Assembly: GCF_032883915.1 (NCBI RefSeq)
Contig: NZ_CP120717.1
Location: 3,231,697-3,295,696 of the forward strand
Origin: Endozoicomonas sp. 8E
GTDB taxonomy: Bacteria; Pseudomonadota; Gammaproteobacteria; Pseudomonadales; Endozoicomonadaceae
Reading direction: 5' to 3'
DNA: 64,000 bases
The notes beneath the pieces were generated by a model. It had not been told where the DNA came from. It saw only the letters and a program-made list of their open reading frames with translations, and did not search any database. The position numbers and the translations under genes were made by a program. Shown in pieces: positions 1 through 27,505 of this stretch (positions within the stretch are counted from its first letter, which is position 1; each line of letters opens with the position of its first letter).

Positions 1-1247
1 ATGGTCAGAGCAGTCTGTGTTGTTTTGATCTGATTTCCAATCAGGTAAAAAACAGGATATCTTGTTTCGTTATCTGCGGTTCCAACAAGAACAAACCCGC
101 CTTTGCGAAGAGGGTCGAGACGTGTGATACCGTCATTGGAAATGTCAACAGTGTTTTTGAAGACATCCATGGTGATTTTAGGACCCAGTCTGAACTCTGC
201 CGCCTCTGCCATATCGCCCTGGAATGTGTTCCCGATAACGGCCAATAGCCTCGACTGGTTTCTAATCGCAGGAAGATTGATTAATATTCCCTGATCAGGA
301 ATAAGATTGGAAAGAATGCGGTTGTGAAGCCTGGTGTATTTTCTCCCAATGACTGTGTTATTGGCAAACTGCAGGCCTGGGCCTCGGTACCAATAAGTGG
401 CGGATAAATTCAAAGGTATCTTGCAATCAAGATTAACTGCGGCCCGAACAGGAAGATGGAATACGTTTTCTTCTAATATCAGTCTTCGGTTATAACACTC
501 TGCAAAAACAATGGAGTCAATTAAAGGGAGGTTATTCTCTCGGCTTGGCTTGAAAGTGACGTGTCGTATATTACTCTCTCTTCTTTCCCCGAACAGGAAG
601 TTATCAGGGGCTCCAATCCTAACCATATTACTGCCTGTAAATCCTGGCCGATCCCTGATAACGATTTCAAAATCGATATTGGCAGCCCCAAGAATGTCCT
701 GACCGTCTTTCAATCGAATTTCACCGTCTATAAAGTATTCAACGGGAGTTTTACCAGGCACAGACGTCGTTGACGGAGAAGGCATTGCTGTGGTGCTATT
801 TGACTGAACTACCGAGGAAGAGGTCATATTCATCGAAGAGCTGGAAGTAACATTGGCAGGGGCAGTGGTTGTAGCAGAAGCAGAAGTAGTCGCAGAAGTA
901 GAAGCAGAAGCAGAAGCAGAAGCAGAAGCAGGGGTAAGCGCGGTTTCGGAGGAGAGCAAAATAACAGTGTTCTCAGGAATCCGTTCGATCAACTTATTTA
1001 AATTCTCTGTCGGGTTGGCTTTGAGAACAATGCACTGTCGATTGTAAACAAGGTTGCTATAAAGGTTCAGTTGTGCATCAACCCCCATCGTCTGTGGTGA
1101 AAGCTGTTCGCACAGTTCAGTCTGAAGGGGGGGAGCAGAAGCGGTTACAATTGGAGATTGAGTTGTGTTTTGTGCCTGCAGAATCAGAGCCTGTAACAGG
1201 AGTACAGGAGCGATTAAGCAGGCAAGATAATACTGTAGCTTGGTCAT
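1..1247 (-). CDS. Family A copy A1: exported beta-helix-like surface protein, 3' end beyond window
   Basis: Partial gene: 415 codons are visible from the ATG at 1245-1247 and the 3' end lies left of base 1. Residues 1-26 form a Sec signal peptide (MTK start, hydrophobic core, ending LILQAQ). Block 1 follows (GVDAQLNLYSNLVYNRQC), then an Ala/Ser/Thr linker of about 60 residues encoded partly by hexanucleotide gcagaa-type repeats near 868-935, then VEYFIDGEIRLKDGQDILGA. The family's usual AADDGFEIVI reads AANIDFEIVI here. Further on are HVTFKPS, FAECYNRRLILEENVFHLP and GPGLQFANNTVIG, the standard order. The visible part ends at GNQIKTTQTALT, so the C-terminal Cys module and tail are outside. 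Function is unknown; a surface or secreted role is inferred from the signal peptide and mucin-like linker. Confidence 0.85.
   Translation of the reverse strand, partial: MTKLQYYLACLIAPVLLLQALILQAQNTTQSPIVTASAPPLQTELCEQLSPQTMGVDAQLNLYSNLVYNRQCIVLKANPTENLNKLIERIPENTVILLSSETALTPASASASASASTSATTSASATTTAPANVTSSSSMNMTSSSVVQSNSTTAMPSPSTTSVPGKTPVEYFIDGEIRLKDGQDILGAANIDFEIVIRDRPGFTGSNMVRIGAPDNFLFGERRESNIRHVTFKPSRENNLPLIDSIVFAECYNRRLILEENVFHLPVRAAVNLDCKIPLNLSATYWYRGPGLQFANNTVIGRKYTRLHNRILSNLIPDQGILINLPAIRNQSRLLAVIGNTFQGDMAEAAEFRLGPKITMDVFKNTVDISNDGITRLDPLRKGGFVLVGTADNETRYPVFYLIGNQIKTTQTALT
868..935. repeat. gcagaa-type hexanucleotide repeat in A1
   Basis: Short in-frame repeat (mostly gcagaa, with gtagaa and gcagta variants) encoding alternating Ala/Ser/Thr in the A1 linker on the minus strand. 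Gain or loss of units would change linker length without shifting the frame. Confidence 0.7.
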
Positions 1248-1270
1248 GTTAAGGTCTCCCGATAAACCTA

Positions 1271-1320
1271 GATAGGAAGCCTAGACTCTGCATTTATACT
1301 TATCCATTAATATGATTAAG
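1271..1320 (-). promoter_or_regulatory. Family A upstream block and likely promoter of A1
   Basis: Read on the minus strand this block has TTAATGGATAAGTATAAATG followed by CAGAGTCTAGGCTTCC. TATAAA (1293-1298) is a plausible -10 box. The same block stands upstream of most other copies, which is the main support; no start site is known. Confidence 0.6.
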
Positions 1321-1524
1321 ATGTTTCAGGAAAATAGTTGGACTTTTCTTTCTACTCTCTCTTCAGTGCTCTTTCCCGGACTGCCAGCACTGACTCCAGA
1401 GCCATTTTATATCACTCGTTTTGCTCTTGAAGGGAATGTTTATCTCCCGAGATAATGTCTGGAGTCCCACGCAGGGACTTACAGGACCTGAAAGCACAGG
1501 AATCATGATAAACGCAGCTTACGC

Positions 1525-3396
1525 TTATAGATTCAACATTACAGCCAGAGTTGTTATAAAAGTTGTTATGACACCCAAAGCAGTCGTCGTGGCGGTTAAA
1601 CCGGCAGTTGAAGTGGTCACAACATCAGAGTCGTCTAAACCCGCTGATGTGGTGTTAACAACAGCAGGGGCAGCGACTGTAGGGCAGTTTGCTGCATTAT
1701 CAAAGTAGAGCTGACCCTGGATATTGGTCAGCCCGGATAGAACAGAAGCTCTGGAATAATTGATGGGAGTCCAGGTATTCATGATCTGGTTGAGTGTCGG
1801 TCTTCTGGTCGTCATGCCGGCGGTTGAACTCACGGATCTTTGGCACTCAGTTCCCAGCCGTAAGGAGTTAACTGCTATCACTGCATAATATTCGCTGTAT
1901 TGGTTCCACAGAGCCGTTCCCAGAAAGTCGTTACAGGCCAGGGCCAGTTCAATGCTGAAAGAGATGTTTATATCTTTCGTTGTGACGTAGATATAATTAC
2001 CAGCCAGTTTATAGCGAGGAACTTTACCGCCAAACCGATCACCTATAAGAGCGAATCCCCCTCGTCGGTCTGGAATTCCTGATGCAATTTCGTCACGCGT
2101 CACGCCTTCAGTATCAATGGTAACCGTGTTTCTGAAGATATCAATACTGCTTTCGGACGCAAGGTGAATCTCAGCCAATTGTGAGGTTTTGCCCCGGACT
2201 ATGTTCTCAATTATTTTGAGCTTGTTTGACTGTCTAGTGATGTAGCCAAAATTAATGATTATTGCTGCCAAGGGAATCATGCTGTGCTGTGTTGTGCGGA
2301 TGGTTTCACCTATTACCACGTTGTTGGCGAAACGCAAGCCTGGACCCGTTTGCAAATTATTGGCGGATGCATCCAGAGGTGTAGCGCATCTCATGTCGAC
2401 TGCGGCCAAGGTAGGGAGATATAAAACGTTGTTTTCTATAGCCAGTGTCCGGTTATAACAGTTTGTGTAAAAAATATTGTAGATTGGTCTATCAGGATCA
2501 GTTCCGGTTGGCCGGAAAGTTATGTGTTTTATATGATTGTCTATTGCTTCGCTGAAATTGAATCCGCCATTGTATTCAACTCCAACCTCGATCATGTTTC
2601 TGTCTGAAAAACCTGGGTGAAGCTTGATAACAATTTCATAACCGTCATCAGCAGCCCCGATGATGTCCTGACCGTTCTTCAAAGTTATTGCATTGGCGAT
2701 AAGATATTCAACAGTGGGCTTACCTGTCACGGGGGCAACGGTTGGAGAAGTTGTTTTGGAGGAAAGCAAGATAACAGTGTTATCAGGAATCTGTTTTATC
2801 AACTCACTTAAATCATCTGCAGGGTCGGCACTGAGAACAACGCACCGTCGTCTGCTAACAAGACCACTGTACTGTTTAAGCCGTTGTTCAACTCCCGTCG
2901 TTTGACCTCTGAGAGAGCTGCATAATTCCGGTAGGAGAGCTGCAGTAGTGGGCGTTGCAGTAGTAGCAGGAGCTGCAGTCGTAGGAGCTGCAGTTGACGA
3001 TTGAGCTGTAGCTGTCGATTGAACAGCGGCTGTTGATTGAACTCTGGCTGTCGGTTGAACTGAGGCTGTCGATTGAACTCCAGCGAACGGTTGAACTCCA
3101 GCGAACGGTTGAACTGCGACTGTTTGTTCAACTGCCGCTGTCGATTGAACTGCGGTTGTCGATTGAACTGCGGCTGTCGATTGAACTACGGCTGTCGATT
3201 GAACTGCGGCTGTCGATTGAACTGCGGCTGTCGGTTGAACTGCGGTTGACGATTGAACTGTTGCTGCCTGTTGAGCCATGGTTGTTGGATGAACTGCGGT
3301 TGTAAGTTGAGTCGTGTTTTGAGCCTGAAGGTTCAGGGGCAGTAACAGAAATACAGGAGCGATGAACAGGGCCGAATAATGCCGCAACTTAATCAT
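1525..3396 (-). CDS. Family A copy A2: exported beta-helix-like surface protein with 6-residue repeats
   Basis: 623 residues. The ATG at 3394-3396 is chosen because it gives MIKL as in most copies and AAGGAG stands just upstream; the frame stays open to 3441. Layout, which serves as the family description: signal peptide 1-26; linker 27-155, here of AAVQST-type units; block 1 (GQTTGVEQRLKQY, then RRRCVVLSADP and IPDNTVILLSS, about 159-213); a short variable linker; block 2 (YLIANAITLKNGQDIIGAAD, 230-250); a run of short strand-turn repeats with many Asn, typical of a right-handed beta-helix (ITFRPTG, TNCYNRTLAIENNVLYLP, GPGLRFANNVVIG, and so on); LACN and a second linker; NTWTPIN; and a hydrophobic tail ending VITTFITTLAVMLNL. 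Conserved Cys residues suggest disulphides in an exported protein. The beta-helix fold is inferred from the pattern. No catalytic motif is recognised. Confidence 0.88.
   Translation of the reverse strand: MIKLRHYSALFIAPVFLLLPLNLQAQNTTQLTTAVHPTTMAQQAATVQSSTAVQPTAAVQSTAAVQSTAVVQSTAAVQSTTAVQSTAAVEQTVAVQPFAGVQPFAGVQSTASVQPTARVQSTAAVQSTATAQSSTAAPTTAAPATTATPTTAALLPELCSSLRGQTTGVEQRLKQYSGLVSRRRCVVLSADPADDLSELIKQIPDNTVILLSSKTTSPTVAPVTGKPTVEYLIANAITLKNGQDIIGAADDGYEIVIKLHPGFSDRNMIEVGVEYNGGFNFSEAIDNHIKHITFRPTGTDPDRPIYNIFYTNCYNRTLAIENNVLYLPTLAAVDMRCATPLDASANNLQTGPGLRFANNVVIGETIRTTQHSMIPLAAIIINFGYITRQSNKLKIIENIVRGKTSQLAEIHLASESSIDIFRNTVTIDTEGVTRDEIASGIPDRRGGFALIGDRFGGKVPRYKLAGNYIYVTTKDINISFSIELALACNDFLGTALWNQYSEYYAVIAVNSLRLGTECQRSVSSTAGMTTRRPTLNQIMNTWTPINYSRASVLSGLTNIQGQLYFDNAANCPTVAAPAVVNTTSAGLDDSDVVTTSTAGLTATTTALGVITTFITTLAVMLNL
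3001..3300. repeat. 18-bp tandem repeats in the A2 linker
   Basis: About fifteen imperfect copies of an 18-bp unit (plus-strand form gcggctgtcgattgaact) encode the AAVQST hexapeptide on the minus strand. The unit is a multiple of three, so copy-number change keeps the frame. Confidence 0.8.
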
Positions 3397-3411: not shown

Positions 3412-3470
3412 GAAAGTCGATAGGAAGCCTAGACTCTGCATTAATACTTATCCATTAATATGATTAAGAT
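3412..3470 (-). promoter_or_regulatory. Family A upstream block and likely promoter of A2
   Basis: Same block as upstream of A1, with TATTAA (3441-3446) at the -10 position. The whole A1-A2 and A2-A3 spacers are near-identical over about 220 bp, including the following gene's 3' end, which points to a recent duplication of a gene-plus-spacer unit. Confidence 0.6.
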
Positions 3471-3672: not shown

Positions 3673-5493
3673 TTATAGATTCAACATTACAGCCAGAGTT
3701 GTTATAAAAGTTGTTATGACACCCAAAGCAGTCGTCGCGGCGGTTAGACCAGCAGATGAAGTGGTTACCAAGTCAGAGTCGTCTAAATCCGCTGATTTAG
3801 TGTTAATTAAAGCAGGGGGAGTGGCTGTCGGGCAGAGTGATGTACCAAAGTAGAACTGACCCTCGACGTTGGTCAGCCCAGTTAAAGCAGTAGCTTTGGA
3901 ATCATTGATGGGAGTCCAGCTATTCACGATCTGGCAGAGTGTCGGTGCACTGGTCGTTGCCATGCCGACGGTTGAACTCACGGATCTTCGGCACTCAGCT
4001 GCCAGTGGTAATGGATCAACGGCTTTCAGGGAGAAATATTCGTTACGTACATTCCACAGAGTCACTGCCATAAAGTGATTGCAGGCCAGGGTCAGATCAA
4101 GCTGTTTAATGATAGTTAAAGCTGTCGTTGTGAGGTAGATATCATTACCAGCCAGATTAATCAGAGGAGCTTTTCTATCGGTAAACCCAAGACCTCTTAA
4201 AGCGAATCCCCCTCGTCGGTTTTCAAATCCTGTTCTAATTTCACTGCGTGTTGTGCCTTTATTGTCGATGGAAATCGTGTTTCTGAAGATATCGATACTG
4301 CTTCCGGATCCAATTGAAATTTCAGCCAATTCTGAGATTTTGCCCCGGAATGTATTCTCAATTATTTCGAGCTTGTTTGACTGGTTATTGATCTTGCCAA
4401 GATTAATGAATATCGCTTCCTCGGCAATCATACTGTGCCGTGTTGTGCGGATGATTTCACCTATGACCTTGTTGTTGGCGAAACGCAAGCCCGGGCCCTT
4501 GCGCAAATCATTGGCGGATGCATCCAGAGCTGAATTGCAACTCATGTCAACTGCAGCCCAGGTAGGGAGATATAAAACGTTGTTTTCTATAGCCAGTGTC
4601 CGGTTATAACACTTTGTGTAAAAAATAGCGTAGATTGGATTATCGGGATTAGCTCCAGTTGGCCGGAAAGTTATGTGTTTTATATGATTGTCTATTGTTT
4701 CGCTAAAATTGAATTTACCATTGTATTCAACACCAACCCCGATCATGTATCTGTTTGTAAAACCTGGATGTAGCTTGATAACAATTTCAAAACCGTCATC
4801 AGCAGCTCCGATGATGTCCTGACCGTTCTTCAAAGCTATTGGACTGGCAATAAGATAATCAACAGTGGGCTTACCTGTTGTGGGGGCAACAGTTGGAGAA
4901 GTCGTTTTGGAGGAAAGCAAGATAACGGTGTTATCAGGAATCCGTTTTATCAACTCACTTAAATCATCTGCAGGGTCGGCACTGAGAACAATGCACTGTC
5001 GTCCGCTAAAAAGATCACTGTACTGATTCAGGCGTTGTTCAACCCCCGTCGTTTGACCTCTGAGAGAGTTGCATAATTCCGGTAGGAGAGCTGCAGTAGT
5101 GGGAGCTGCAGTAGTAGTAGGAGCTGCAGTCGTAGGAGCTGCGGTTGACGATTGAGCTGTAGCTGTCGATTGAGCTCTGGCTGTTGATTGAACTCCAGCT
5201 GTCGATTGAACTGCAGCGAACGGTTGAACTGCAGCGAACGGTTGAACTGCGACTGTTTGTTCAACTGCCGCTGTCGATTGAACGGCGGCTGTCGATTGAA
5301 CTGCCGCTGTCGATTGAACGGCGGCTGTCGATTGAACGGTGGTTGTCGGTTGAACTGCGGCTGTAGATTGAACTGCGGTTGTCGGCTGAACAGTGGTTGT
5401 AGATTGAGTCGTGTTTTGAGCCTGAAGGTTCAGAGCCAGTAACAGAAATACAGGGGCGAAAAACAGAGCCGGATCACGCTGCAACTTAATCAT
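3673..5493 (-). CDS. Family A copy A3: exported beta-helix-like surface protein with 6-residue repeats
   Basis: 606 residues, the closest relative of A2: the tail (ALGVITTFITTLAVMLNL) is identical and most body blocks match. Signal peptide is residues 1-25 (MIKLQRDPALFFAPVFLLLA...); the N-terminal linker of AAVQST-type units runs to about 135; block 1 has GVEQRLNQYSDLFSGRQC; block 2 is YLIASPIALKNGQDIIGAAD. The second linker is short, followed by NSWTPIN and LTNVEGQFYFG. The ATG at 5491-5493 begins MIKL and lies behind GGAGTCCCGAAA. Upstream is the 924-bp repeat-filled gap to A4. Exported surface protein of unknown function; paralogy is certain from the sequence, role is inferred. Confidence 0.88.
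   Translation of the reverse strand: MIKLQRDPALFFAPVFLLLALNLQAQNTTQSTTTVQPTTAVQSTAAVQPTTTVQSTAAVQSTAAVQSTAAVQSTAAVEQTVAVQPFAAVQPFAAVQSTAGVQSTARAQSTATAQSSTAAPTTAAPTTTAAPTTAALLPELCNSLRGQTTGVEQRLNQYSDLFSGRQCIVLSADPADDLSELIKRIPDNTVILLSSKTTSPTVAPTTGKPTVDYLIASPIALKNGQDIIGAADDGFEIVIKLHPGFTNRYMIGVGVEYNGKFNFSETIDNHIKHITFRPTGANPDNPIYAIFYTKCYNRTLAIENNVLYLPTWAAVDMSCNSALDASANDLRKGPGLRFANNKVIGEIIRTTRHSMIAEEAIFINLGKINNQSNKLEIIENTFRGKISELAEISIGSGSSIDIFRNTISIDNKGTTRSEIRTGFENRRGGFALRGLGFTDRKAPLINLAGNDIYLTTTALTIIKQLDLTLACNHFMAVTLWNVRNEYFSLKAVDPLPLAAECRRSVSSTVGMATTSAPTLCQIVNSWTPINDSKATALTGLTNVEGQFYFGTSLCPTATPPALINTKSADLDDSDLVTTSSAGLTAATTALGVITTFITTLAVMLNL
5141..5405. repeat. 18-bp tandem repeats in the A3 linker
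   Basis: Same 18-bp unit family as in A2 but with a different copy number and order, encoding AAVQST-type hexapeptides on the minus strand. Confidence 0.8.
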
Positions 5494-5518: not shown

Positions 5519-5566
5519 TAGGAAGCCTAGACGCTGTGTTTATACTTATCCATTAACATGATTAAG
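5519..5566 (-). promoter_or_regulatory. Family A upstream block and likely promoter of A3
   Basis: Conserved block with TATAAA (5539-5544) as -10 candidate, then the CTAGGCTTCC motif. The homology to the other copies stops soon after, where the repeat block of the A3-A4 gap begins. Confidence 0.6.
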
Positions 5567-6417: not shown

Positions 6418-7977
6418 TTATAGTTTCAACAAAATGACCAGAGTGGCTATGAACTCCAAACCATTGGTCATTGAGGCTTTGACCGCCGATGAAGTGGAAA
6501 CCGGGCTGTTACTGAAAGTCATATTGGTAATAGAAGCAGAGGACTGAGGCTCTGTCATGCAAACAGCTGAGCCAAAGTAGAACTGACCCTCGACGTTGGT
6601 CAGTCCAGTCAAAGCAGTGGCTTTGGAATCATTGAAGGGAGTCCAGGTATTCACGATCTGGCAAAGTGTCGGTGCACTGGTCGTTGCCGGGCCGACGGTT
6701 GAACTCACGGAGCTTTGGCACTCACCTGCCAGTGGCAATGGATCAACGGCTTTCAGGGGGAAGTATTCGTTGTCTACTTTCCACAAAGTCATTCCCATAA
6801 AGTGGTTACAGGCCAGCGCCAGATCAAGCCTGTCATAGATAGTTAAAGCTGTCGTTGTGACGTAGATGTTGTTACCAGCCAGATTAATGAGAGGCGCTTT
6901 TCTATAGGCAAAAAGGAAAAGACTTTTTAAAGCGAATCCCCCCCTTCGGGTTTCAATTCCTGTACGAATTTCGCTACGTGTCTTGCCTTTATTGTCTATA
7001 ACAACAGTGTTTCTGAAGATATTAATATTGCTTCCGGACCCAATTGCAATCTGAGCCAATTCCGAGATTTTGCCCCGGAATGTGTTCTCAATTATTTCGA
7101 GTTTGTTTGACAGGTTGTTGATGTTGCGAAAATTAATGAATATTGCTTCCAGGGGAATCATACTGTGTTTTGTTGTGCGGATGGTATCACCAATGACCTT
7201 GTTATTAGCGAAACGTAAGCCCGGGCCCGTGTGCAAATCATTGGTGGATGCATCCAGATACGCAGTGCAATGAATGTTAACTGCGGCCCAGACAGGGAGA
7301 TAAAAAACGTTGTTTTCTATAGACAATGTCCGGTTATAGCAGTTTGTGTGAATAATAGCGTCAGTCAGAGTATCGGGATTAACTGCAGTTGGCCGGAAAG
7401 TAATATGTTTTATATGATTGTCTCCTGTTTCTCCAGAATTGAATTTGCGACTGTATCCAACTCCAACCCCGATCATATATCTGTTTGTAAAGTTATCATG
7501 AAGCTTGATAACAATTTCAAAACCGTCATCAGCAGCCCCGATGATGTCCTGACCGCTCTTCAAAACTATTGCACTGGCAATAAGATATTCAATAGTGGGC
7601 TTTCCTGTCACAGGGGTAAGGGTTGGAGAAGTCGTTTTGGAGGAGAGCAAGATAACGGTGTTATCAGGAATCCGTTTTATCAACTCACTTAAATCATCTG
7701 CAGGGTTGGCAGTGAGAACAACGCACTGTCGTCCGCTCACAAGATCACTGTAGTGGTTTAGCCGTTGTTCAACCCCCGTCGTTTGATCTCTGAGGGAGCT
7801 GCATAATTCTGTTGGAATGAGAGGTGCAGTAGTAGGAGCTGCAGTTGACGATTGAGCTGCGGCTGTCGGTTGAGCAGTGATTGTAGATTGAGTCGTGTTT
7901 TGAGCCTGAAGGTTCAGGGCAAGTAACAGAAACACAGGAGGGATGAACAGGGACGGATGGTGCTGCAAGTTAATCAT
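6418..7977 (-). CDS. Family A copy A4: exported beta-helix-like surface protein
   Basis: 519 residues, with a much shorter N-terminal linker than A2 and A3 (residues 26-57, no long hexapeptide run), though the body is close to A3. Signal peptide MINLQHHPSLFIPPVFLLLA. Block 1: DQTTGVEQRLNHYSDLVSGRQC. Block 2: YLIASAIVLKSGQDIIGAAD. Then TNCYNRTLSIENNVFYLP, GPGLRFANNKVIG, LACNHFM, NTWTPFN and NVEGQFYFG. The tail ends LEFIATLVILLKL. Comparison with A3 suggests the linker expands and contracts while the body is kept. The ATG at 7975-7977 aligns with the family start. Function unknown. Confidence 0.88.
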   Translation of the reverse strand: MINLQHHPSLFIPPVFLLLALNLQAQNTTQSTITAQPTAAAQSSTAAPTTAPLIPTELCSSLRDQTTGVEQRLNHYSDLVSGRQCVVLTANPADDLSELIKRIPDNTVILLSSKTTSPTLTPVTGKPTIEYLIASAIVLKSGQDIIGAADDGFEIVIKLHDNFTNRYMIGVGVGYSRKFNSGETGDNHIKHITFRPTAVNPDTLTDAIIHTNCYNRTLSIENNVFYLPVWAAVNIHCTAYLDASTNDLHTGPGLRFANNKVIGDTIRTTKHSMIPLEAIFINFRNINNLSNKLEIIENTFRGKISELAQIAIGSGSNINIFRNTVVIDNKGKTRSEIRTGIETRRGGFALKSLFLFAYRKAPLINLAGNNIYVTTTALTIYDRLDLALACNHFMGMTLWKVDNEYFPLKAVDPLPLAGECQSSVSSTVGPATTSAPTLCQIVNTWTPFNDSKATALTGLTNVEGQFYFGSAVCMTEPQSSASITNMTFSNSPVSTSSAVKASMTNGLEFIATLVILLKL

Positions 7978-8014: not shown

Positions 8015-8174
8015 CAGCCTGTCGGACTTAAGTCTGCCCTACTGCGGTTGCGATAAATTGGTCTAAAAATTCCTGCCTCTTCGTCAAATAGCCCCGCTAT
8101 TCTCCTCAGAAGCAGAAATTTTTATCCTCAATTTCTCGCAATCCTCGCTACGGGCGCTTAAGTCCGACAGGCTG
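8015..8174. mobile_element. Miniature inverted-repeat element, type 1, with CTAG duplication
   Basis: 160-bp non-coding element with perfect 18-bp terminal inverted repeats (CAGCCTGTCGGACTTAAG). It is flanked on both sides by CTAG (8011-8014 and 8175-8178). The undisturbed family A upstream block has a single CTAG at this point (gcctagacg), so CTAG is the target duplication. The insertion separates the A4 start from its conserved promoter block. Confidence 0.85.
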
Positions 8175-8215
8175 CTAGACGCTGTGTTTATACTTATCCA
8201 TTAATATGATTAGGG
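8175..8215 (-). promoter_or_regulatory. Family A upstream block for A4, displaced by an insertion
   Basis: Conserved block with TATAAA (8187-8192). The 160-bp miniature element lies between it and the A4 start, so the transcript leader of A4 would be lengthened by about 164 bases. Confidence 0.55.
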
Positions 8216-11605: not shown

Positions 11606-11650
11606 ATAGGAAGCCTGGACTCTGCACTTGTACTTATCCATCAAACTCTA
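11606..11650 (-). promoter_or_regulatory. Family A upstream block of A6
   Basis: Conserved block reading GATGGATAAGTACAAGTG then CAGAGTCCAGGCTTCC on the minus strand; the -10-like box is weaker (TACAAG) than in A1, A3 or A10. Confidence 0.45.
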
Positions 11651-18360: not shown

Positions 18361-18410
18361 CGATAAGAAGCCTAGACGCTGTATTTATACTTATCCATTG
18401 ACCTGTGTTG
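18361..18410 (-). promoter_or_regulatory. Family A upstream block and likely promoter of A10
   Basis: Well-conserved block with CAATGGATAAGTATAAATAC on the minus strand; TATAAA at 18384-18389 is the -10 candidate. Confidence 0.6.
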
Positions 18411-18571: not shown

Positions 18572-20104
18572 TCACATCACACAAAACAGACCCATGAGGG
18601 TCATGAGAAAACACAGACCAAAAAATTTGACGGTGTGATCTGGTAATCTTCTGTAGTTCATGCAGATACTCTCAGTTGTAGTGGTGCTGTCAGTTGTGCG
18701 GGTACTGGAAATAAAGGATGGAGCGAAGGACTGGCAGTTACCTGTGTCAAAGAAGAGCTGGCCTTCAAAGTTGACCAAACCGGAACAAGCCGTATCAGAG
18801 GAATAATGTGTGGCCGTCCAGGTATTTGCAGCCCGGATGTTTTCACGTGGGGTTGGTATAACATCGTTAAAACTCACAACGTTTTCACACTGTCTTCCAA
18901 TATCACCAAATGTTGCCGGGAGTGCCTTCAAGTTGTATTGCGGTTGAAATTGCCACCATGCATTGAAGGCTTGCAGGTGGTTGCAAGACATAGACAGTTC
19001 AATCAGTCCCCCGATAGTTATAGCTGTTGCTGTCACCCGGATCTTATTGCCAACCACATTAAAGAGAGGCGTTTTTGCACCACTATTGGCATGACCTAAA
19101 AGAGCAAAACCACCTTTGAGGAAAGCGGGGCGACCAATGCTGCCGTAATTGCTAATATCAACCGTGTTTTTGAAAATGTTTATACCGCTTCCGGAGCCAA
19201 GCTTAAATTCACCCGCTTCTGCCATTTTGCCCCGAATTCTGTTCCCGCTAACAGTTAATGCCTCTTGCTGATTTCTGATGGCAGGTAGATTAATAGATAT
19301 TCCTTTTTCGGGAACAAGGGTTTTGTTGAGCTTTTTGAAGCTTGTACCTATGACTGTGTTTTCGGCGAACAGCAGGCCCGGCCCCTGGCGGTTGACATTG
19401 TCTGATGCATCCAGAGATTTATTACAATCAAGGACAAGTGAAGCCTGGAGAGGAAGGTGAAATACGTTGTCTTTTAAAATGAGTTTCCGGTTATAGCACT
19501 CTGCAAAAACAATGGAGTCAATTGCGGGGGAGCCATTTTCCCGACTGGGCTGGAAGCTAAGGTGTCTGATATGACTGTCTTTGGTTTCGTCAAACTGGAA
19601 ATTGTCAGTGGTTCCGACCTTAACAAAATGTTTATCTACAAATCCCGGCCGGTCCCTGATGACGATTTCATGGCCATCATCAGCTGCCCCGAGAATGTCT
19701 TGACCGTTTTTTAAACGTATTTCACCGCCAATAAGGTACTCAACCGGGACTTTGCCCGAGACAGGGTAACCTGATGGAGAAGGCGTCTTCACTGCGGGGG
19801 CAGTATTGGAGGAGAGCAGTATCACGGTGTTTTCAGGAATTTGATTGATCAGCTGATCGGTATCCACTGTACGGTCGGCACTGAGAACAATGCACTGTCG
19901 ACCGCGAACATGGCTTTTATACTGGTTTAGCCGACTCTGAACCCCTGGCGTCCGCCCTGAAAGAGCGTTGCAGGACATCGTTGGAGGGGGAGATGAAGGA
20001 GAAGGAGCTTCGAATGCAGTCGATTGAGTTGTCGTTTGGGCGTGGAGACTCAGAGCCTTTATAAGAAACACAGGAGCGATTAATCGGATTAAATTATGAA
20101 TCAC
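18572..20104 (-). CDS. Family A copy A11: exported beta-helix-like protein with replaced C-terminus
   Basis: 510 residues. The GTG at 20102-20104 is the likely start: the family ATG position is not conserved, GGAAG stands 8 bases upstream, and the N-terminus (IHNLIRLIAPVFLIKALS) aligns with the others minus a few residues. Block 1: GRTPGVQSRLNQYKSHVRGRQC. Block 2: YLIGGEIRLKNGQDILGAAD. Then AECYNRKLILKDNVFHLP, GPGLLFAENTVIG, MSCNHLQAF, NTWTATH and NFEGQLFFDTGNC. The end differs from all others: after Thr-rich STTTES it has CMNYRRLPDHTVKFFGLCFL and a terminal FCVM. The tail is still hydrophobic but of separate origin, perhaps after a 3' recombination. Function unknown. Confidence 0.85.
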   Translation of the reverse strand: MIHNLIRLIAPVFLIKALSLHAQTTTQSTAFEAPSPSSPPPTMSCNALSGRTPGVQSRLNQYKSHVRGRQCIVLSADRTVDTDQLINQIPENTVILLSSNTAPAVKTPSPSGYPVSGKVPVEYLIGGEIRLKNGQDILGAADDGHEIVIRDRPGFVDKHFVKVGTTDNFQFDETKDSHIRHLSFQPSRENGSPAIDSIVFAECYNRKLILKDNVFHLPLQASLVLDCNKSLDASDNVNRQGPGLLFAENTVIGTSFKKLNKTLVPEKGISINLPAIRNQQEALTVSGNRIRGKMAEAGEFKLGSGSGINIFKNTVDISNYGSIGRPAFLKGGFALLGHANSGAKTPLFNVVGNKIRVTATAITIGGLIELSMSCNHLQAFNAWWQFQPQYNLKALPATFGDIGRQCENVVSFNDVIPTPRENIRAANTWTATHYSSDTACSGLVNFEGQLFFDTGNCQSFAPSFISSTRTTDSTTTTESICMNYRRLPDHTVKFFGLCFLMTLMGLFCVM

Positions 20105-20130: not shown

Positions 20131-20180
20131 CAAGGAAGCCTAGACTCTGAATTTATACCTATCCATTAATATTATGCGAT
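20131..20180 (-). promoter_or_regulatory. Family A upstream block and likely promoter of A11
   Basis: Conserved block (TTAATGGATAGGTATAAATT on the minus strand) with TATAAA at 20152-20157, followed by CAGAGTCTAGGCTTCC. Confidence 0.6.
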
Positions 20181-20334: not shown

Positions 20335-20470
20335 AACCGCTACTAAAAATCTAACATAATCTGTAATTATGTAGACTTATCTACGCCGTCGGCATGGATG
20401 CACGACGAATCGTGTCTAACTCCACTCTTGCGTAGGGTTTAGGGTCTGGGCGACCCCGTCGAGCTGCAAC
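20335..20470 (-). ncRNA. Putative omega (guide) RNA at the tnpB 3' end
   Basis: TnpB nucleases use an RNA encoded at and beyond the 3' end of tnpB, ending at the element's right end. Here that stretch holds three hairpins (CACGATTCGTCGTG, GTAGATAAGTCTAC, CATAATTACAGATTATG on the minus strand). The RNA's guide would then be the flank just past the right end, inside the A12 C-terminal codons and downstream spacer. Position follows family knowledge; transcription is not shown. Confidence 0.4.
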
Positions 20471-21558
20471 GTGTCTCGACCATAATTATCAAGGTTCAAA
20501 CTTGCACTGTAATCTCTGTCATGCAGGGTTTTACATTTTGGACACCGCCACTCACGATCAGACAGAGTGAGATTGTCATTTATGTAGTCGCAAGTGTGAA
20601 CCGCACACTTTTTTGAACTTGGAAAGAACCGATCTGCAATCACAACCTGGCATCCTCTCAGCTCTGCCTTGTATTCAACAAGTTCTCTCAGCTTACCGAA
20701 ACCTGCGTCACTGATTGCTCTTGCCAGTTTGCGGTTTTTTACCATGCCTTTGACATTCAGATTTTCGAGGGTGATTATTTTGAATCTTGACGTCAGATAA
20801 TCACTTACCTCATGTAGTACGGCTGATCGCTGGTTACTTATCCGGTAATGCAGTTTGGCAACCGCTCGCTTGGCTTTCACATAGCGGTTGCTTCCCTTTG
20901 TTTTGCGGCTTAACGCCCTCTGTTTTCTGTTAAGGCGTTTCAGAGAGCCTTTCAGTTTCTGATTAGCAGCAAAGGTTTTGCCATTCGAACAAATAGCTAA
21001 ATCCTTGATGCCAAAATCAACGCCTACAGACTCATTGCTTTGTGCTTTTGGGTCGTAATCCTGAGTGTCTACCAAAATAGAAGCGAAATACTTTCCGGCT
21101 CGCTTACTGATCGTCACCTGACAGGGTGTTCCTGTGAATCTCAGCTCTTGGCGCATCTTGATGCGGGTTTTCAGTTTCTCAATGCGAAGTGTTCTGTCAT
21201 CAACATCGAACTTGGGTTTTTCTCTGAGAGAAAAACTGTCGTGTAGTCCTCGCTTCTTGAACCTTGGATAACCTGCTTTTTCTCCTTTCTTCACCCGACG
21301 AAAGAAGTGAGTAAAGGCGTCATGAAGATCGTCGATTGTGTTCCTGGTGACACGTTGGCTGACTTCGGCATACCAGGGAAACTCAAGCCTGAGTTCCTGG
21401 TATTTTTCATTCGCAGCCTTCTTTGACCATTTAACGCCTTCTTTATTGAAATGTGCTAACAGTTGATTGAACGCATGACGACGAGAACCACAAGCCCTAT
21501 CAAGATAATCGGCTTGTTGTTTTGTCGGTCTGAGTTCAATCTTGTGAGCTAACAACAT
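20416..21558 (-). CDS. tnpB: TnpB, RNA-guided nuclease of an IS200/IS605-group element
   Basis: 380 residues from the ATG at 21556-21558. This start gives MLLAHKIELRPTKQQADYLD, the usual TnpB N-terminus; the frame is open 44 codons further but without family-like sequence. The RuvC-like catalytic residues are visible: Asp in GVDFGIKDLAI (about 181), Glu in ITLENLNVKGM (about 265) and Asp in HDRDYSASLNL (about 347-349). A zinc ribbon lies between the last two (CAVHTC and CPKC); the first pair is C-x4-C, looser than the usual C-x2-C. TnpB proteins are RNA-guided DNA nucleases that help the element persist at its site. Length and motifs look intact. The insertion truncates neighbour A12. Confidence 0.93.
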   Translation of the reverse strand: MLLAHKIELRPTKQQADYLDRACGSRRHAFNQLLAHFNKEGVKWSKKAANEKYQELRLEFPWYAEVSQRVTRNTIDDLHDAFTHFFRRVKKGEKAGYPRFKKRGLHDSFSLREKPKFDVDDRTLRIEKLKTRIKMRQELRFTGTPCQVTISKRAGKYFASILVDTQDYDPKAQSNESVGVDFGIKDLAICSNGKTFAANQKLKGSLKRLNRKQRALSRKTKGSNRYVKAKRAVAKLHYRISNQRSAVLHEVSDYLTSRFKIITLENLNVKGMVKNRKLARAISDAGFGKLRELVEYKAELRGCQVVIADRFFPSSKKCAVHTCDYINDNLTLSDREWRCPKCKTLHDRDYSASLNLDNYGRDTLQLDGVAQTLNPTQEWS

Positions 21559-21897
21559 CTCGCAAAGTCTCAAGCATTTTTTCGTATAACCTGAGTTCGC
21601 CAACCTTCTATAGAACAGTAGGCTTCCAGTAACTCTTGCTGCCTGTCTAAGTCTGGCTTTTGGTCGTGACCGGATACTCTGCAATAGCAAAGCGTAGGCG
21701 CAGCTTCGTTACTTTAGCCCATCAATTCAGACACGTCGTAGTAACAAGTTCCAACTTTGGTCTTTCTGGCAGGAAGCAGCTCACCTGTACTTTCCGATTT
21801 TCGTAGTGTTACTGGGTCTGTACCATGTAAACGAGCTGCCTCACCTATCTTCAGTAATCACTTATCAATGCTTGAGATTTTATAAGATAGTTTTGGA

Positions 21898-23583
21898 TTA
21901 TAATAGATTTCTGCGAACTGTTTTTAACCCTATGACCAGACTAGCCAAAACACCCAAACCATTAATCTCTGCGGTTGTTCCCGCTGCTTTAGTTGGGGTC
22001 AAAAGGGAACTGGACGTTGTATTAGCAACAGAAGCAGAAGCAGAACCAGAACCAGAACGTAGAGTGAATGGTTGGCAGATTTCTGAGTAAAAAAAGAACT
22101 GACCCTCGAAGTTAGCCAGACCGGCACAGGCAGTGGACGAGGAATTGTTTATGGGAGTCCAGGTATTTGCAAACCGGATGCTTCCATGTGTTGTGGGAGT
22201 TGGTATGGCAACCGTTGAATTTACAGCGGGAGTTGACATAACAACGGTTGAATTTGGAGTGAGTGTTGACATGGCAAGGGTTGCATTTGGAGTGGAAGCC
22301 GATATAACAACGGTTGAGTCCGGACCGGATGTCGGCATGACAGTCGTTGGGCCCACAAGGCTAGCGCACACTCCTGACACTTCTCCCAAAGGTGCTGGCA
22401 TTGCTCTAATGCTGGATTGTTTTAAGGGTTGCCACCATGGATTGAAGGCCTGCAGGCGGTTACAAGCCAGAGTCAGTCCAATCTGTCCCCTGACGTTTAT
22501 AGCGGTCCGTGTTACCTTGATTCGATTGCCTGCCAGGAAAAAAACAGGCAGTTTTGAAGGGCTATGTGTAGGCCCAACCAGAACGAAACCTCCTTTGCGA
22601 GCAGAGCTTCGAATTGTGAGGCCAGCATTGGATATATTGACAATGTTATTGAAGACATTGATTTTAGATCCGGGTCCAAGTCTAAACTCAGCCGCTTGTG
22701 CAATATGGTCCTCAAATGTGTTTCCAATAACCGATAGTCGATCTGACTGGTTAATAATAGAAGGAAGATTAATCAATATCCCTTGTTCCTGAGTCACATA
22801 GTAATAAGTATTGTCCATAATCCAGCTGTATTTTCCTCCATAGATTTTGTTATTGGCGAACAGCAAGTTTGGGCCAGGGTTCCGGGTTGAGTCAGAGGCA
22901 TCGGAGAATTTTTTGCAATCAAGAGCGAAGGCGGCCTTTGCAGGACTTACGAATAGGTTATCCTCTATGATCAGCTTCCGGTTGAAGCACTCTGCAAAAA
23001 CAATGGATTCAATGGGATGGTGTATACTTCTCTTCCATGGCGAGAAAGCAAGGTGTCTTATATGGCTGTCTTTCGTTTCTTCAGGTTTGAAGCTTTCAGG
23101 GTATCCAACTCTGAGTATGTGTCTGTATTTAAAATATGAGCGATCCTCGATGACAATATCAAAACCGTCATCAGCCGCTCCGATAATGTCCTGACCGTTT
23201 TTCAAAACTATTTCACTGTCAACAGAATACACAGCTGGAGTTTTATCTGTCACGGGGAAAGCGGACGGAGAAGGTGTCGCGCCAGGTGCAGTCGCGGAGG
23301 AGAGCAAGATAACGGTGTTCTCTGGGATCTTTTTTACCAACGCACCTAAATCCTCTGATGGGTCGACACTGAGAACAACGCACTGTTTTCCATTAACAAG
23401 TTCTCTGTATTGCTTCAGCCGTTGCTCAACCCCTGACGTCTGTCCCGTGAGAGTGTTGCAAGATGATATCTGAAGGCATGATATATAAGAAGAGATGGTC
23501 GGCACATGGGCCTGAAGAATCAGAGCTTGCAAAAGGAATAAAGGCGCGATCAATCTGGTCAGATAATTTGGCAGCTTGGTCAT
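21898..23583 (-). CDS. Family A copy A12: exported beta-helix-like protein, C-terminus altered by TnpB element
   Basis: 561 residues from the ATG at 23581-23583 (MTKLPNYLTRLIAPLFLLQA). The frame is open to 23640 but without family similarity. Block 1: GQTSGVEQRLKQYRELVNGKQC. Block 2: YSVDSEIVLKNGQDIIGAAD. Then AECFNRKLIIEDNLFVSP and LACNRLQAF; the second linker has units like STVVMSTPAVN and is shared with A13; then NTWTPIN and NFEGQFFFYSEIC. The tail reads LASLVIGL and then KTVRRNLL from element DNA, instead of the expected final Asn-Leu. The altered end adds three basic residues after the hydrophobic segment. The upstream spacer lacks the promoter block, so it may be cotranscribed with A13. 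Confidence 0.86.
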   Translation of the reverse strand: MTKLPNYLTRLIAPLFLLQALILQAHVPTISSYISCLQISSCNTLTGQTSGVEQRLKQYRELVNGKQCVVLSVDPSEDLGALVKKIPENTVILLSSATAPGATPSPSAFPVTDKTPAVYSVDSEIVLKNGQDIIGAADDGFDIVIEDRSYFKYRHILRVGYPESFKPEETKDSHIRHLAFSPWKRSIHHPIESIVFAECFNRKLIIEDNLFVSPAKAAFALDCKKFSDASDSTRNPGPNLLFANNKIYGGKYSWIMDNTYYYVTQEQGILINLPSIINQSDRLSVIGNTFEDHIAQAAEFRLGPGSKINVFNNIVNISNAGLTIRSSARKGGFVLVGPTHSPSKLPVFFLAGNRIKVTRTAINVRGQIGLTLACNRLQAFNPWWQPLKQSSIRAMPAPLGEVSGVCASLVGPTTVMPTSGPDSTVVISASTPNATLAMSTLTPNSTVVMSTPAVNSTVAIPTPTTHGSIRFANTWTPINNSSSTACAGLANFEGQFFFYSEICQPFTLRSGSGSASASVANTTSSSLLTPTKAAGTTAEINGLGVLASLVIGLKTVRRNLL

Positions 23584-23704: not shown

Positions 23705-25474
23705 TTATAGATTCAACCATATGGCCAGCGTAGCTAAAACACCCAAACCACTAATCTCTGCGGTTGATCCCGCTGCCGTAGTTGGGACCAAAAGGGAACC
23801 GGACGTTGTATTAGCAACAGAAGCAGAAGCAAAAGCAGAAGCCAGAGTGAATGGTTGGCAGATTTCTGAGTAAAAAAAGAACTGACCCTCGAAGTTAACC
23901 AGACCGGCACAGGCAGTGGACGAGGAATCCTTTATGGGAGTCCAGATATTTGCAAACCGGATGCTTCCATGTGTAGTGGGAGTGGGTATGGCAACCGTTG
24001 AATTTACAGCGGGAGTTGACATGACAACGGTTGAATTTGGAGTGGGAGTTGACATGGCAAGGGTTGCATTCGGAGTAGAAGCCGACATAACAACGGTTGA
24101 GTCCGGACCGGATGTCGACATGACAGCCATTGAATCTGGAGTGAAGGTTGACATAACAAAGTTTGAATTTGGACCAGCTGTTGGCATGACAGTAGTTGGG
24201 CCCACAAAGCTACTGCACACTCCTGATACTTTTCTCAAAGGTGCTGGCATTGCTTTAATGCTGAATTGTTTTAAGGGTTGCCTCCATGGATTGACGGCCT
24301 GCAGGTGGTTACAAGCCAGGGTCAGTCCAAGCTGTCCACTGACGGTTATAGCGGTCCGTGTTACCTTGATTTGATTGCCAGCCAGGAAAAAAACAGGCCG
24401 TTTTGAAAGGCTATAGGTAGGCCCAACCAAAATGAAACCTCCTTTGCGAGCAGAGCTGCGAGTTGTGGGGCCAAAATTGTTTATATTGACAATGTTATTG
24501 AAGACATTGATTTTAGATCCGGGAGCCAGTCTGAACTCAGCCGCTTCTGCAATGTCGTCCTCAAATAGGTTCCCAATAACCGATAGCCGATCTGACTGGT
24601 TAATGACAGAAGAAATATTAATAAATATCCCTTGTTCCTGAATAAAATAGGAATACATTTTGTTCATAATCGAGGTGTATTTTCCTCCGTAGATTTTGTT
24701 ATTAGTAAACAGTAAGCCTGGGCCAAGATGCCGGGTTGGGTCGGAGGCATCGGAAAATTCTTTGCAATCAAGAGCAAGGGCGGCCTTTACAGGGGTACGG
24801 AATACGTTATCTTCTACGATCAGCTTCCGGTTGTAGCACTCTGCAAAAATGATAGAGTCAATGGGGAGGCGTGCATTATTCAGTGATGGCGAGAAAGTAA
24901 GGTGTCTTATGTGGCTGTCTTTCGTTTCCTCAGGTTTGAAGCTTCCAGGGTATCCAACTCTCAGTAAGTGTCTGTGTATAAAATCTGATCGATCCCTGAT
25001 GACAATCTCAAAACCGTCATCAGCTGCTCCAATAATGTCCTGACCGTTTTTCAAAACTATTTCACTGTCAACAAGATACTCAACCGAGGTTTTATATGAC
25101 GCGGGGGTAGTTGGAGAAAGCGTTGCGCCGGGTGTAATACTGGATGCGGGGGTAGCTGGAGAAAGCGTTGCGCCGGGTGCAGTATTGGAGGAGAGGAAGA
25201 TAACGGTGTTCTCTGGAATCTGTTTTACCAATTCACCTAAATCCGTTGAAGGGTTGGCATTGAGAACAACGCACTGTCTTCCATTAATCAGTTCTCTGTA
25301 TTGCCTTAGCCGTTGTTCAACCCCTGTCGTCTGTCCCGTGAGAGTGTTGCACGATGATGTCGGAAGGCTTGATGTAGAAGAAGAGATTGTCGGGGTCTGG
25401 GCCTGTAGAATCAGAGCCTGCAAAAGGAATAAAGGCGCGATCAATCGGGCCAGACAATGTTGCTGCTTGATCAT
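23705..25474 (-). CDS. Family A copy A13: exported beta-helix-like surface protein
   Basis: 589 residues from the ATG at 25472-25474 (MIKQQHCLARLIAPLFLLQA); the longer frame to 25537 runs into a miniature element and is rejected. It is the nearest relative of A12. Block 1: GQTTGVEQRLRQYRELINGRQC. A linker with a duplicated TPGATLSP-type unit follows (ITPGATLSPTTPAS), then YLVDSEIVLKNGQDIIGAAD. The second linker, about 90 residues, is built of STxVMSxxTPN-type units. NIWTPIK and NFEGQFFFYSEIC precede a tail ending LGVLATLAIWLNL, the form A12 would have had. Two miniature elements separate the gene from its upstream block at 25815-25860. Function unknown. Confidence 0.87.
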   Translation of the reverse strand: MIKQQHCLARLIAPLFLLQALILQAQTPTISSSTSSLPTSSCNTLTGQTTGVEQRLRQYRELINGRQCVVLNANPSTDLGELVKQIPENTVIFLSSNTAPGATLSPATPASSITPGATLSPTTPASYKTSVEYLVDSEIVLKNGQDIIGAADDGFEIVIRDRSDFIHRHLLRVGYPGSFKPEETKDSHIRHLTFSPSLNNARLPIDSIIFAECYNRKLIVEDNVFRTPVKAALALDCKEFSDASDPTRHLGPGLLFTNNKIYGGKYTSIMNKMYSYFIQEQGIFINISSVINQSDRLSVIGNLFEDDIAEAAEFRLAPGSKINVFNNIVNINNFGPTTRSSARKGGFILVGPTYSLSKRPVFFLAGNQIKVTRTAITVSGQLGLTLACNHLQAVNPWRQPLKQFSIKAMPAPLRKVSGVCSSFVGPTTVMPTAGPNSNFVMSTFTPDSMAVMSTSGPDSTVVMSASTPNATLAMSTPTPNSTVVMSTPAVNSTVAIPTPTTHGSIRFANIWTPIKDSSSTACAGLVNFEGQFFFYSEICQPFTLASAFASASVANTTSGSLLVPTTAAGSTAEISGLGVLATLAIWLNL

Positions 25475-25498
25475 GTTCCGGGCTCCTGGCGAGTCTGG

Positions 25499-25602
25499 CA
25501 GCCTGTCGGACTTAAGCGTCCCTAGCGAGGATTGCAAGAAACAGGGATTTTTAGACCAATTTATCGCAACCGCAGTAGGACAGTCTTAAGTCCGACAGGC
25601 TG
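25499..25602. mobile_element. Miniature inverted-repeat element, type 1, shorter copy
   Basis: 104 bp with the same 18-bp terminal repeats as the element at 8015-8174 (CAGCCTGTCGGACTTAAG) but reversed and internally deleted. Followed by CTAG at 25603-25606 and preceded by CTGG, a near-match to the CTAG duplication of the first copy. Confidence 0.8.
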
Positions 25603-25610
25603 CTAGGAGG

Positions 25611-25808: not shown

Positions 25809-25814
25809 TCTCAT

Positions 25815-25860
25815 AGATAGGAAGCCTAGACGCTCCATTAATAGTTGGCCATTATCAGGC
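25815..25860 (-). promoter_or_regulatory. Family A upstream block for A13, displaced by two insertions
   Basis: Contains GGCTTCCTATC, AGCGTCTAGG and AATGGCCAACTATTAATGG on the minus strand, matching the family block. The two miniature elements put about 340 bp between it and the A13 start. Confidence 0.5.
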
Positions 25861-25936
25861 ATTAAGAAAATAAACAGGACTTCTTTTTAATCGTTCCCAT
25901 GTTCCCGGAATGCCTGCGAGGATAAACAGGCTCTGG

Positions 25937-27505
25937 TTATAGATTCAACAATATGGCCAGAGTGGTCATGATGCCCAGAGGGGTTGCCACTGTAGCTGTA
26001 CTTGTTGATGAGGTAGGGACTGCTATCGTGCTGGTATCGGGAGCAGAATCGGAAATGACGGGCTGGCAGACTTCTGTAGCAAAGAAAAACTGACCTTCGA
26101 AGTTGACCAGACCCTTACAGGCAGTGAAGAAGGAGCCGTTGATGGCTGTCCAGGTATTTGCAAACCGGCTGCTTATTGAAGGTGGAATGGACGTTGACTT
26201 GTTATGGGCTGAGCCTGAAGTGGGCGTGACAGTCGTTGAACTCACAACGTTATTGCACCGTTCTGGTTCTCTTCCCGAGGGAAAGGGGAGTGCTTTCAGA
26301 CTGAATTGTTTTTGGGGTTGCCACCATGGATTAACTGCCTGCAGGTGATTACAAGCCAGTATCAGACTGAGTTGCCCCCATAGGGTTATAGCTGTCCGTG
26401 TTGCCATGATCCGATTGCCAGCCAGAAAAAAAACAGGGGGGATTTTCGTGTTATCTGCAGGTCCTGCAAGAACGATCCCCCCTTTGCGAACAGAGTAGCG
26501 CGTTGTGTTGCCAACATTGGAAATGTTGATAGTGTTTTTGAAGATCCCCATACGGGTCCCGGGTCCAAGTCTGAACTCAGCTGCTTCTGCAATATTACCT
26601 TCGAATATATTACCGAAAACAGCTATTTTCTCCGACTGTTTCACGATGGCAGGAAGATTAATAAACAGGCCTTGGTCGGGAATAATATAGGGAAAAAGTT
26701 TGTCGAAAATCGAGTCGTACCTTTCACCGATGATCCTGTTATCTGCAAACTGCAACTTTGGGCCCTGGAGCCGTTCATTGACAGATGCATCCAGATTTTT
26801 TTTGCAATCAATAATAACCGCGGCCCGGACAGGGGGATAAAATACATTTTCTTCTACAATCAGTTTTCGGTTATAACATTCTGCGAAAATAATGGAGTCA
26901 ATGGGGAGGCGCTTATTATTTCGAGTGGGTCGAAAAGTAATGTGTTTTATATTGCTGTCGCCGGTATAGGCTGGCTGAAATTTGTTGGCGGTTCCCACCC
27001 TGATCAGATGTCTGCCTTCAAATATTGGCCGATCCCTGATGACGATCTCAAAACCGTCATCAGCAGCTCCTATGATGTCCTGACCATTCTTTAAACGTAT
27101 TTCATGGTCAGCAAAGTACTCAACCGGTGTTTTACCCGTCACAGAGGTAGCCGTTGGAGAGGATGTTACGGCAGGGGCAGTGTTGGATGAGAACACTATA
27201 AAGGTGTTTCCGGGAATCTGTTTTATTAACTCACTTAAATCCTTTGACGGGTTGGCACTGAGAATAACGCACTGCCGTCCCTTAACAAGTTTTCTATACT
27301 GGTTCAGTCGTTGCTGTACCCCTGTCGTCTGTAGTGCAAGAATTGCTGGCCTCAGAAGATCGTCGCAGGATGTCGTCGAAGTCGGAGTTATGGCAGAAGG
27401 GGTTACTGTTGAAGATTGCGATGTTGTTTGAGCCGGTATACTCAGGGCCTGAAACAGGAATAGAGGCACGATTAATCGGGCCAGATATCGCTGTAGCTTC
27501 GCCAT
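25937..27505 (-). CDS. Family A copy A14: exported beta-helix-like surface protein, first gene of the array
   Basis: 522 residues; the upstream end of the array, next to the divergent giant protein. Signal peptide MAKLQRYLARLIVPLFLFQA ending LSIPAQ. A Thr/Ser linker leads to CDDLLRPAILALQTTGVQQR, an 8-residue expansion of block 1. Block 2: YFADHEIRLKNGQDIIGAAD. Then ITFRPTRNNK, AECYNRKLIVEENVFYPP, GPKLQFADNRIIG (K for the usual G), LACNHLQAV, NTWTAIN and NFEGQFFFATEVC; tail LGIMTTLAILLNL. The conserved upstream block precedes it. Function unknown. Confidence 0.88.
   Translation of the reverse strand: MAKLQRYLARLIVPLFLFQALSIPAQTTSQSSTVTPSAITPTSTTSCDDLLRPAILALQTTGVQQRLNQYRKLVKGRQCVILSANPSKDLSELIKQIPGNTFIVFSSNTAPAVTSSPTATSVTGKTPVEYFADHEIRLKNGQDIIGAADDGFEIVIRDRPIFEGRHLIRVGTANKFQPAYTGDSNIKHITFRPTRNNKRLPIDSIIFAECYNRKLIVEENVFYPPVRAAVIIDCKKNLDASVNERLQGPKLQFADNRIIGERYDSIFDKLFPYIIPDQGLFINLPAIVKQSEKIAVFGNIFEGNIAEAAEFRLGPGTRMGIFKNTINISNVGNTTRYSVRKGGIVLAGPADNTKIPPVFFLAGNRIMATRTAITLWGQLSLILACNHLQAVNPWWQPQKQFSLKALPFPSGREPERCNNVVSSTTVTPTSGSAHNKSTSIPPSISSRFANTWTAINGSFFTACKGLVNFEGQFFFATEVCQPVISDSAPDTSTIAVPTSSTSTATVATPLGIMTTLAILLNL

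Follow-up and report, generated by a model that had tools for sequence, protein, structure and literature searches.

A tandem array of fourteen predicted beta-helix proteins in Endozoicomonas sp. 8E, best read as a diversifying surface-adhesin family

Introduction

Bacteria of the genus Endozoicomonas are found widely in association with corals and other marine animals. The window analyzed here, a stretch of 64,000 nucleotides (nt), is C1:3231697-3295696 of the 7.38-Mb single-contig genome of Endozoicomonas sp. 8E. Its first part (window 3-27505) contains 14 homologous open reading frames (ORFs) on the minus strand, A1 to A14. Why should one chromosome hold so many versions of a single predicted exported protein? 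The array is best read as a diversifying surface-adhesin family. Its members probably form a lineage-specific family of exported, cysteine-stapled, non-catalytic right-handed beta-helix proteins, most likely surface adhesins or receptor-binding proteins directed towards the animal host.

Results

Composition of the array

An earlier reading of the DNA (the sequence-only reading) had described a 14-gene tandem array whose products share a signal peptide, a Cys block, a GAADDG-type motif, Asn-rich strands and a C-terminal Cys module in this order. The alignment bears this out: A1 to A14 can be aligned across all of these elements (the signal peptide being read by eye), with 42-58% identity to A14 among the array proteins (A1 partial). 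No family match adjoins the array on either side in the 8E genome, so the array consists of 14 genes. All have an open frame, and A1, truncated by the window start, is intact in the genome (open frame 3231159-3232976). The genes do not all lie side by side, as had been proposed, since a transposase-like ORF, presumably of the TnpB type, breaks the row. Elsewhere in the genome there are five dispersed family copies, of which two are broken, together with two short remnants.

Predicted fold, conserved residues and the possibility of catalysis

The predicted model of A10 is a right-handed beta-helix (predicted local distance difference test, pLDDT, 82.9; predicted template modelling score, pTM, 0.79), and in structure searches it comes closest to alginate epimerase/lyase, RbmB and polygalacturonase. 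This prediction had been set beforehand as a test of the beta-helix-like fold; the confident model and its matches support that fold, and neither of the outcomes named as refuting it, a known enzyme family or another fold, was obtained. A ladder of Asn residues is invariant at six positions (entropy 0-0.13). C41, C67, C198, C222, C373 and C403 are constant across 56 heads wherever aligned, and would be joined in disulphides. Mean entropy is 2.18 at positions +6 to +13 after the ladder Asn versus 1.27 at -4 to +5, offsets that were picked after viewing the data and whose value random phases match in 111 of 5000 cases. In this fold the variable positions would be turns on one face of the helix.

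The A proteins have no family match at cut-off in Pfam or NCBIfam and no curated family comes near it, in agreement with the sequence-only reading, which recognized no named family. The best relevant score is 19.4 bits, for A4 with the pectate-lyase-like family PF12708 (cut-off 27), which 2 of 34 members match at E ≤0.1. A profile of these 34 sequences has no match at E 1 among all PDB chain sequences. No autotransporter family, with its C-terminal beta-barrel domain, is among the Pfam matches of the 34 members at E 0.1. In PHROGs, phrog_7964 (best E 2.5e-8) and phrog_5070, both of no function, each match 2 of the 14 proteins, and phrog_26672 (virion structural) matches one.

Many carbohydrate-active families have a beta-helix fold. 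The proteins could thus be secreted enzymes (polysaccharide lyases, epimerases or hydrolases) for which host mucus or algal glycans are the substrates, these differing between copies; the structure matches to A10 and the conservation of K127, H176, R201 and Y118 favor this. No Asp or Glu occurs among the columns conserved at ≥90% in the 34 sequences, which in our view makes binding more likely than catalysis. Motifs of known enzyme classes are absent or sporadic in 54 family rows (NTD 4, GHG/GQG 5, DPH 1, WxDH 0, RxPxxR 2, RIK-type 21), the profile libraries give no match at cut-off, and the hydrophobic tail and stalk described below suggest a tethered protein. An enzymatic role is therefore considered unlikely. 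By analogy with PfbA and Awp1-type adhesins, for which the same has been argued, we think that binding is the likelier function.

The C-terminal tail

At the stop codon the proteins carry a tail with the consensus ~TSSAGTTAVTTGLGVITTLAILLxL, mostly without basic residues. Under a strict test (a hydrophobic run of 14 residues, ≤4 residues after it, and no K, R, D or E in the last 17), 31 of 54 family rows qualify, versus 1 of 202 other ORFs. Among the 23 rows that fail are fragments, three tailless orthologues, and tails that have one charged residue or are longer by a few residues. None of 106 signal-peptide-like ORFs without inner membrane segments carries the strict tail among 439 ORFs from 40 sampled 20-kb stretches (0.8 Mb) of the 8E genome, nor do unrelated signal-peptide ORFs in ten stretches each of genomes G040 (0/22) and G007 (0/27). 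In each of the three sampled genomes one ORF with multiple membrane segments passes the tail test alone.

Judged by its sequence, the tail does not appear to fit the bacterial sorting tags checked. At least two K/R occur in the last eight residues in 2 of 56 rows, NCBIfam models have no match to 17 tails at E 1, and LPXTG is absent from the last 80 residues in all 54 rows. The best score for rhombosortase (TIGR03902) in the 8E genome is 60.9 bits (cut-off 84), and all 14 control genomes also score below cut-off; other sortase classes, including exosortase, were not searched. A general sorting system for the tail was rejected: every hit of a tail profile at E <0.01 in the ten genus genomes is either a family member or a short frame next to a family copy. 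How the proteins might be anchored is the most novel point of the array. The tail might represent a new bacterial C-terminal anchoring class, functionally similar to glycosylphosphatidylinositol (GPI); an envelope enzyme would remove it, and a lipid or glycan anchor would take its place. This proposal is rather doubtful; if it is true, a Gram-negative symbiont displays yeast-adhesin-style beta-helix heads on stalks.

Two further observations concern the tail. Genome G005, which has no A-family match, encodes an unrelated exported protein (L102 3813-4811) that has a stretch rich in Ser and, up to its stop codon, a hydrophobic tail. In the open frame of a dispersed 8E copy (L069, G000:C1:5792965-5795361) several weak tail-profile matches follow one another, which looks like a repetition of tail-like units.

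Leaders, spacers and repeats

A conserved leader block of ~65 nt precedes the start codon. Thirty-eight leaders were extracted, covering 9 of the 14 window genes; two were spurious and were dropped, and 28 of the remaining 36 score ≥26/40 against one consensus. A 27-nt leader pattern with ≤3 mismatches lies before 8 of the 14 genes (chance expectation 0). On inspection by eye, A5 and A9 have the leader too, the versions preceding A7 and A8 are degenerate, and none is seen at A12 and A13. In the 8E genome five places match a longer pattern, all within the array. The leader contains a TATAAA-like box and is probably a promoter plus ribosome site.

Two other interpretations of the leader were rejected. 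A small upstream frame (often MDKYKxxV-stop) stops at differing codons, and its changes by codon position (30, 46 and 41) are not concentrated at the third. No consensus pairs are predicted for a hairpin hiding the Shine-Dalgarno (SD) sequence, and a helix drawn by hand for it scores no higher than shuffles and lower than the same helix slid by 1-3 columns (24 of 28 leaders). Two elements resembling miniature inverted-repeat transposable elements (MITEs) have identical 18-bp inverted ends; part of the second is apparently, by eye, read in frame in the stalk of an A4-like protein of Endozoicomonas sp. ISHI1.

The spacers 5' of A1 and of A2 (277 and 276 nt) are 90% identical over the 260 nt compared, and between A1 and A2 the spacers show 88-96% identity but the bodies no more than 35-69%. 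The bodies of A2 and A3 are 68-98% alike per 100 nt and the alike spacers are those downstream of A2 and of A3; thus the duplicated unit is a gene with its downstream spacer. Near-identical spacers had been taken as a sign of recent duplication. The likeness is real, and recent duplication applies to A2/A3/A4 and A12/A13 only; by the tree described below most members are old paralogues. The coding repeats of A2 (18 nt) and A9 (27/54 nt) have periods divisible by 3, so they alter length and not frame.

Distribution and history of the locus

In the ten genomes of the genus set, 8E is G000 and ISHI1 is G003. Heads spanning >250 profile positions number 19 in 8E, 19 in ISHI1 and 21 in G002 (two short rows dropped). 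At E 1e-5 seven of the ten genomes have matches, with one remote match each in G001, G004, G006 and G009 and none in G005, G007 and G008. None was found outside the genus among 57 relatives (six matched, 8E included, all of the same genus), and among 274 genomes of the class, with few candidates scored per genome, only 8E matched at E 1e-8. A named-genome collection from which 8E is possibly absent gave 11 loci, all in ISHI1. Viral contigs and plasmids contain no relative of the family, and an origin from phage or plasmid was rejected on this ground. No description of the family was found in the open-licence literature, where the terms 'Endozoicomonas' and 'beta-helix' together retrieved no paper and the remaining records comprised titles and abstract starts.

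The array lies between genes that we take to be serS, a multidrug and toxic compound extrusion (MATE) transporter gene and cysG on one side, and a lipase-like gene, an oppA-like gene, aspC and uvrB on the other. Between the same neighbors there are 14 family genes in 8E, 11 in ISHI1 and 3 in G002, which lacks cysG at this place and has an additional copy past the oppA-like gene. The cysG-uvrB gap of G001, G004, G007 and G008 is 4 to 10.5 kb and contains no family member. Three genomes are uninformative on the locus: in G005 the two genes are on separate contigs with other neighbors, and a large distance separates them in G006 and G009. The comparison of copy number between relatives, which had been suggested as a check, therefore gives 14, 11, 3 and 0 at one locus and supports diversification.

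Head arrangement varies as well. Open frames of 1050, 1062, 1115 and 1677 residues in G002 carry two or three heads. A 1769-residue ISHI1 protein has one head between other regions and ends in a membrane segment and a basic tail. In 8E an A4-like head lies behind a long repeat region (PF05342, 25.0 bits, cut-off 27.7).

Tree, tempo and exchange

In a tree of 61 heads, 35 of 58 inner branches are well supported. A1, A10, A11, A12/A13, A2/A3/A4 and dispersed copies group with relatives in other species, and array members of 8E cluster to about the same degree as shuffled labels do (13 changes, shuffle mean 12.8), which indicates that most duplications are old. ISHI1 differs, in that five array heads form a clade of their own. 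The ratio of nonsynonymous to synonymous substitution (dN/dS) is 0.27-0.82 in 11 family pairs versus 0.03-0.09 in seven housekeeping comparisons; the lipase-like and oppA-like flanks give 0.14-0.19. Diversification, as the sequence-only reading had it, is supported by this fast protein change together with the change in copy number.

Synonymous divergence (dS) between A4 and its ISHI1 copy is 0.12, versus 0.32-0.54 for eight flank genes, and between A7 and its G002 copy 0.16, versus 0.32-0.75 for four. Both pairs are much younger than the flanks, which points to transfer of A4 and A7 relatives between species. The further suggestion of a recombination reservoir draws weak support from these pairs and from the spacer breakpoint, and runs against a tree of mostly old, separately kept paralogues.

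The array might also be an antigenic or phase-variation store, with one copy expressed at a time or copies recombining into an expression site. The copies stand in tandem, and spacers 90% identical lie beside diverged bodies, as such a store could explain. Most copies, however, have their own leader and all 14 frames are open, so no single expression site is seen; orthologues are kept across species, and the coding repeats leave the frame unchanged. Such a store is improbable. Equally improbable is dosage or neutral expansion, the amplification of a structural envelope protein without functional divergence, which the old paralogues and a dN/dS <1 in 11 of 11 pairs would allow, since dosage copies should be near-identical instead of 42-58% identical to A14 and the variation is concentrated in turns.

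Discussion

Several results weigh against host-directed adhesins. The nearest structures are mostly enzymes, and Foldseek TM-scores are modest (0.27-0.35 by query length; 10 matches, E ≤0.001). The four conserved residues named above could form a lyase-like site. In addition, the N-terminal part frequently has Asp at D77 and D137, and conservation of D89 and D150 of A14 reaches 90% among the 14 window proteins. Fast change occurs elsewhere too, dN/dS being 0.46 for another exported window protein and 0.41 for the 2141-residue neighbor of the array. Overall dN/dS exceeds 1 in no pair, and the pooled ratio of nonsynonymous to synonymous differences (pN/pS) does so only in the linker (1.24) and the tail (1.02). 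A well-kept leader is wanting in 4 of the 14 genes. The C-terminal Cys module is the last element of three orthologous copies (L084, L093 and L068), which have no hydrophobic tail and are possibly a secreted form. In 8E the member of this tailless group is in pieces.

Each typical copy among A1 to A14 is a self-contained cassette, in which the shared leader is followed by an apparent Sec-type signal peptide and the Cys block. A predicted beta-helix head with a constant core and variable turns comes next, then the C-terminal Cys module and a Ser/Thr/Ala/Pro-rich stalk of changing length. The hydrophobic tail would hold the protein in a membrane, or be cut and swapped for an anchor. Duplication and loss of genes at the one conserved locus could generate new specificities, as could changes in turns and stalk repeats, fusion of two or three heads, and occasional exchange between species. 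The family is large, species-specific, fast-evolving and unmatched in some relatives, and is thus a testable candidate for host specificity in host recognition by Endozoicomonas; it may be how the bacterium grips host surfaces.

Neighboring genes and other features of the window

Features with coordinates are collected in Table 1. Kinship of the 2141-residue neighbor with A1 to A14 was rejected (hhalign probability 1.2%); only a beta-solenoid model is common to them (five sequences modelled). This protein has hydrophobic segments and then a soluble tail at its C-terminus, and has an orthologue in G002 (53%); it is not at the array locus in ISHI1. An acidic dileucine motif in its tail and in that of the 1769-residue ISHI1 protein was dropped, because by eye it is not kept in the neighbor's orthologue.

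Two more tandem families are nearby. Six minus-strand ORFs of ~405-455 amino acids (window 55228-63920) share a C-terminus of the PLDYLYTLFN type. Four ORFs of ~520-560 amino acids lie left of the window (L066 2710-10326, G000:C1:3218709-3226325), and ISHI1 too has several members of their family next to its array (36201-45000 of the contig). One ORF of each family was scanned and had no Pfam match. Eukaryote-like genes of the window encode a RING finger protein with repeats (45105-46016), a protein kinase (46177-47064) and a C2H2 zinc-finger-like protein (37590-39170). The guanine-cytosine content is low around 44-48 kb, beside tRNA-Val.

Table 1. Features of the array region, in window coordinates
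Feature	Position	Strand	Remarks
A1	1..1247 (ORF 3-1247)	-	cut by window start; 606-codon genomic frame; orthologue at same array end in two other species
Shared family leader 5' of A1	1248..1310	-	conserved block
A2	1525..3396	-	Met at 3396; stalk of 18-nt repeats near N-terminus
A3	3673..5493	-	recent duplicate of A2
A4	6418..7977	-	92% identity over 492 residues to a lone ISHI1 copy
MITE-like element	8015..8174	.	18-bp inverted ends; inside A4 leader
A5	8358..9875	-	family ORF
A6	10079..11581	-	Met at 11581
A7	11737..13230	-	low-dS match in G002, other locus
A8	13311..14819	-	family ORF
A9	14908..16761	-	27/54-nt repeats in C-terminal half
A10	16851..18338	-	modelled as right-handed beta-helix
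A11	18572..20104	-	GTG start
Transposase-like ORF, non-family	20416..21690	-	within array, between A11 and A12
A12	21898..23583	-	Met at 23583
A13	23705..25474	-	Met at 25474; recent duplicate of A12
Second MITE-like element	25499..25602	.	upstream of A13
A14	25937..27505	-	family ORF
Further leader matches (≤3 mismatches)	3427-3453, 5525-5551, 8173-8199, 11613-11639, 18370-18396, 20138-20164, 27537-27563	-	pattern search
2141-residue protein, five beta-solenoid-like repeats	28118..34543	+	array neighbor

Comparison with known systems

Pectate-lyase-like enzymes (polysaccharide lyases, glycoside hydrolase family 28 and epimerases) have the right-handed beta-helix fold predicted for the A family. 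A4 is weakly similar to PF12708, below its cut-off. AlgE4/AlgE6 and RbmB are enzymes with 11-14% identity to the family, whose coils lack a conserved acidic set.

The GlyGly-CTERM, PEP-CTERM, PGF-CTERM and MYXO-CTERM tags resemble the A-family tail in having a hydrophobic C-terminal segment after a short signature stretch, and as described end in a basic cluster (PMC11980579). A-family tails differ in being rarely basic and in matching no NCBIfam model (0/17).

PfbA of Streptococcus pneumoniae has a similar beta-helix, and binding has been argued for it over catalysis (PMC3718772). PfbA is located on a Gram-positive cell wall, whereas the A family is without LPXTG.

The closest likeness in layout is to the Awp1-related adhesins of Candida glabrata. 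As described, these have a pectate-lyase-like beta-helix head with no predictable active site, a Ser/Thr-rich repeat stalk and a C-terminal anchor signal, and belong to a large multigene family with 42 assignable members (PMC8746771). They differ from the A family in that they are GPI-modified wall proteins of a eukaryote and have an alpha-crystallin domain behind the helix (PMC8746771), and no sequence kinship was found, the A profile matching no PDB chain at E 1. The order of signal peptide (by eye in the A family), beta-helix, Ser/Thr-rich stalk and hydrophobic C-terminus is the same in both. This layout is a notable convergence with fungal adhesins, and by analogy the A family may work like an Awp1-type adhesin.

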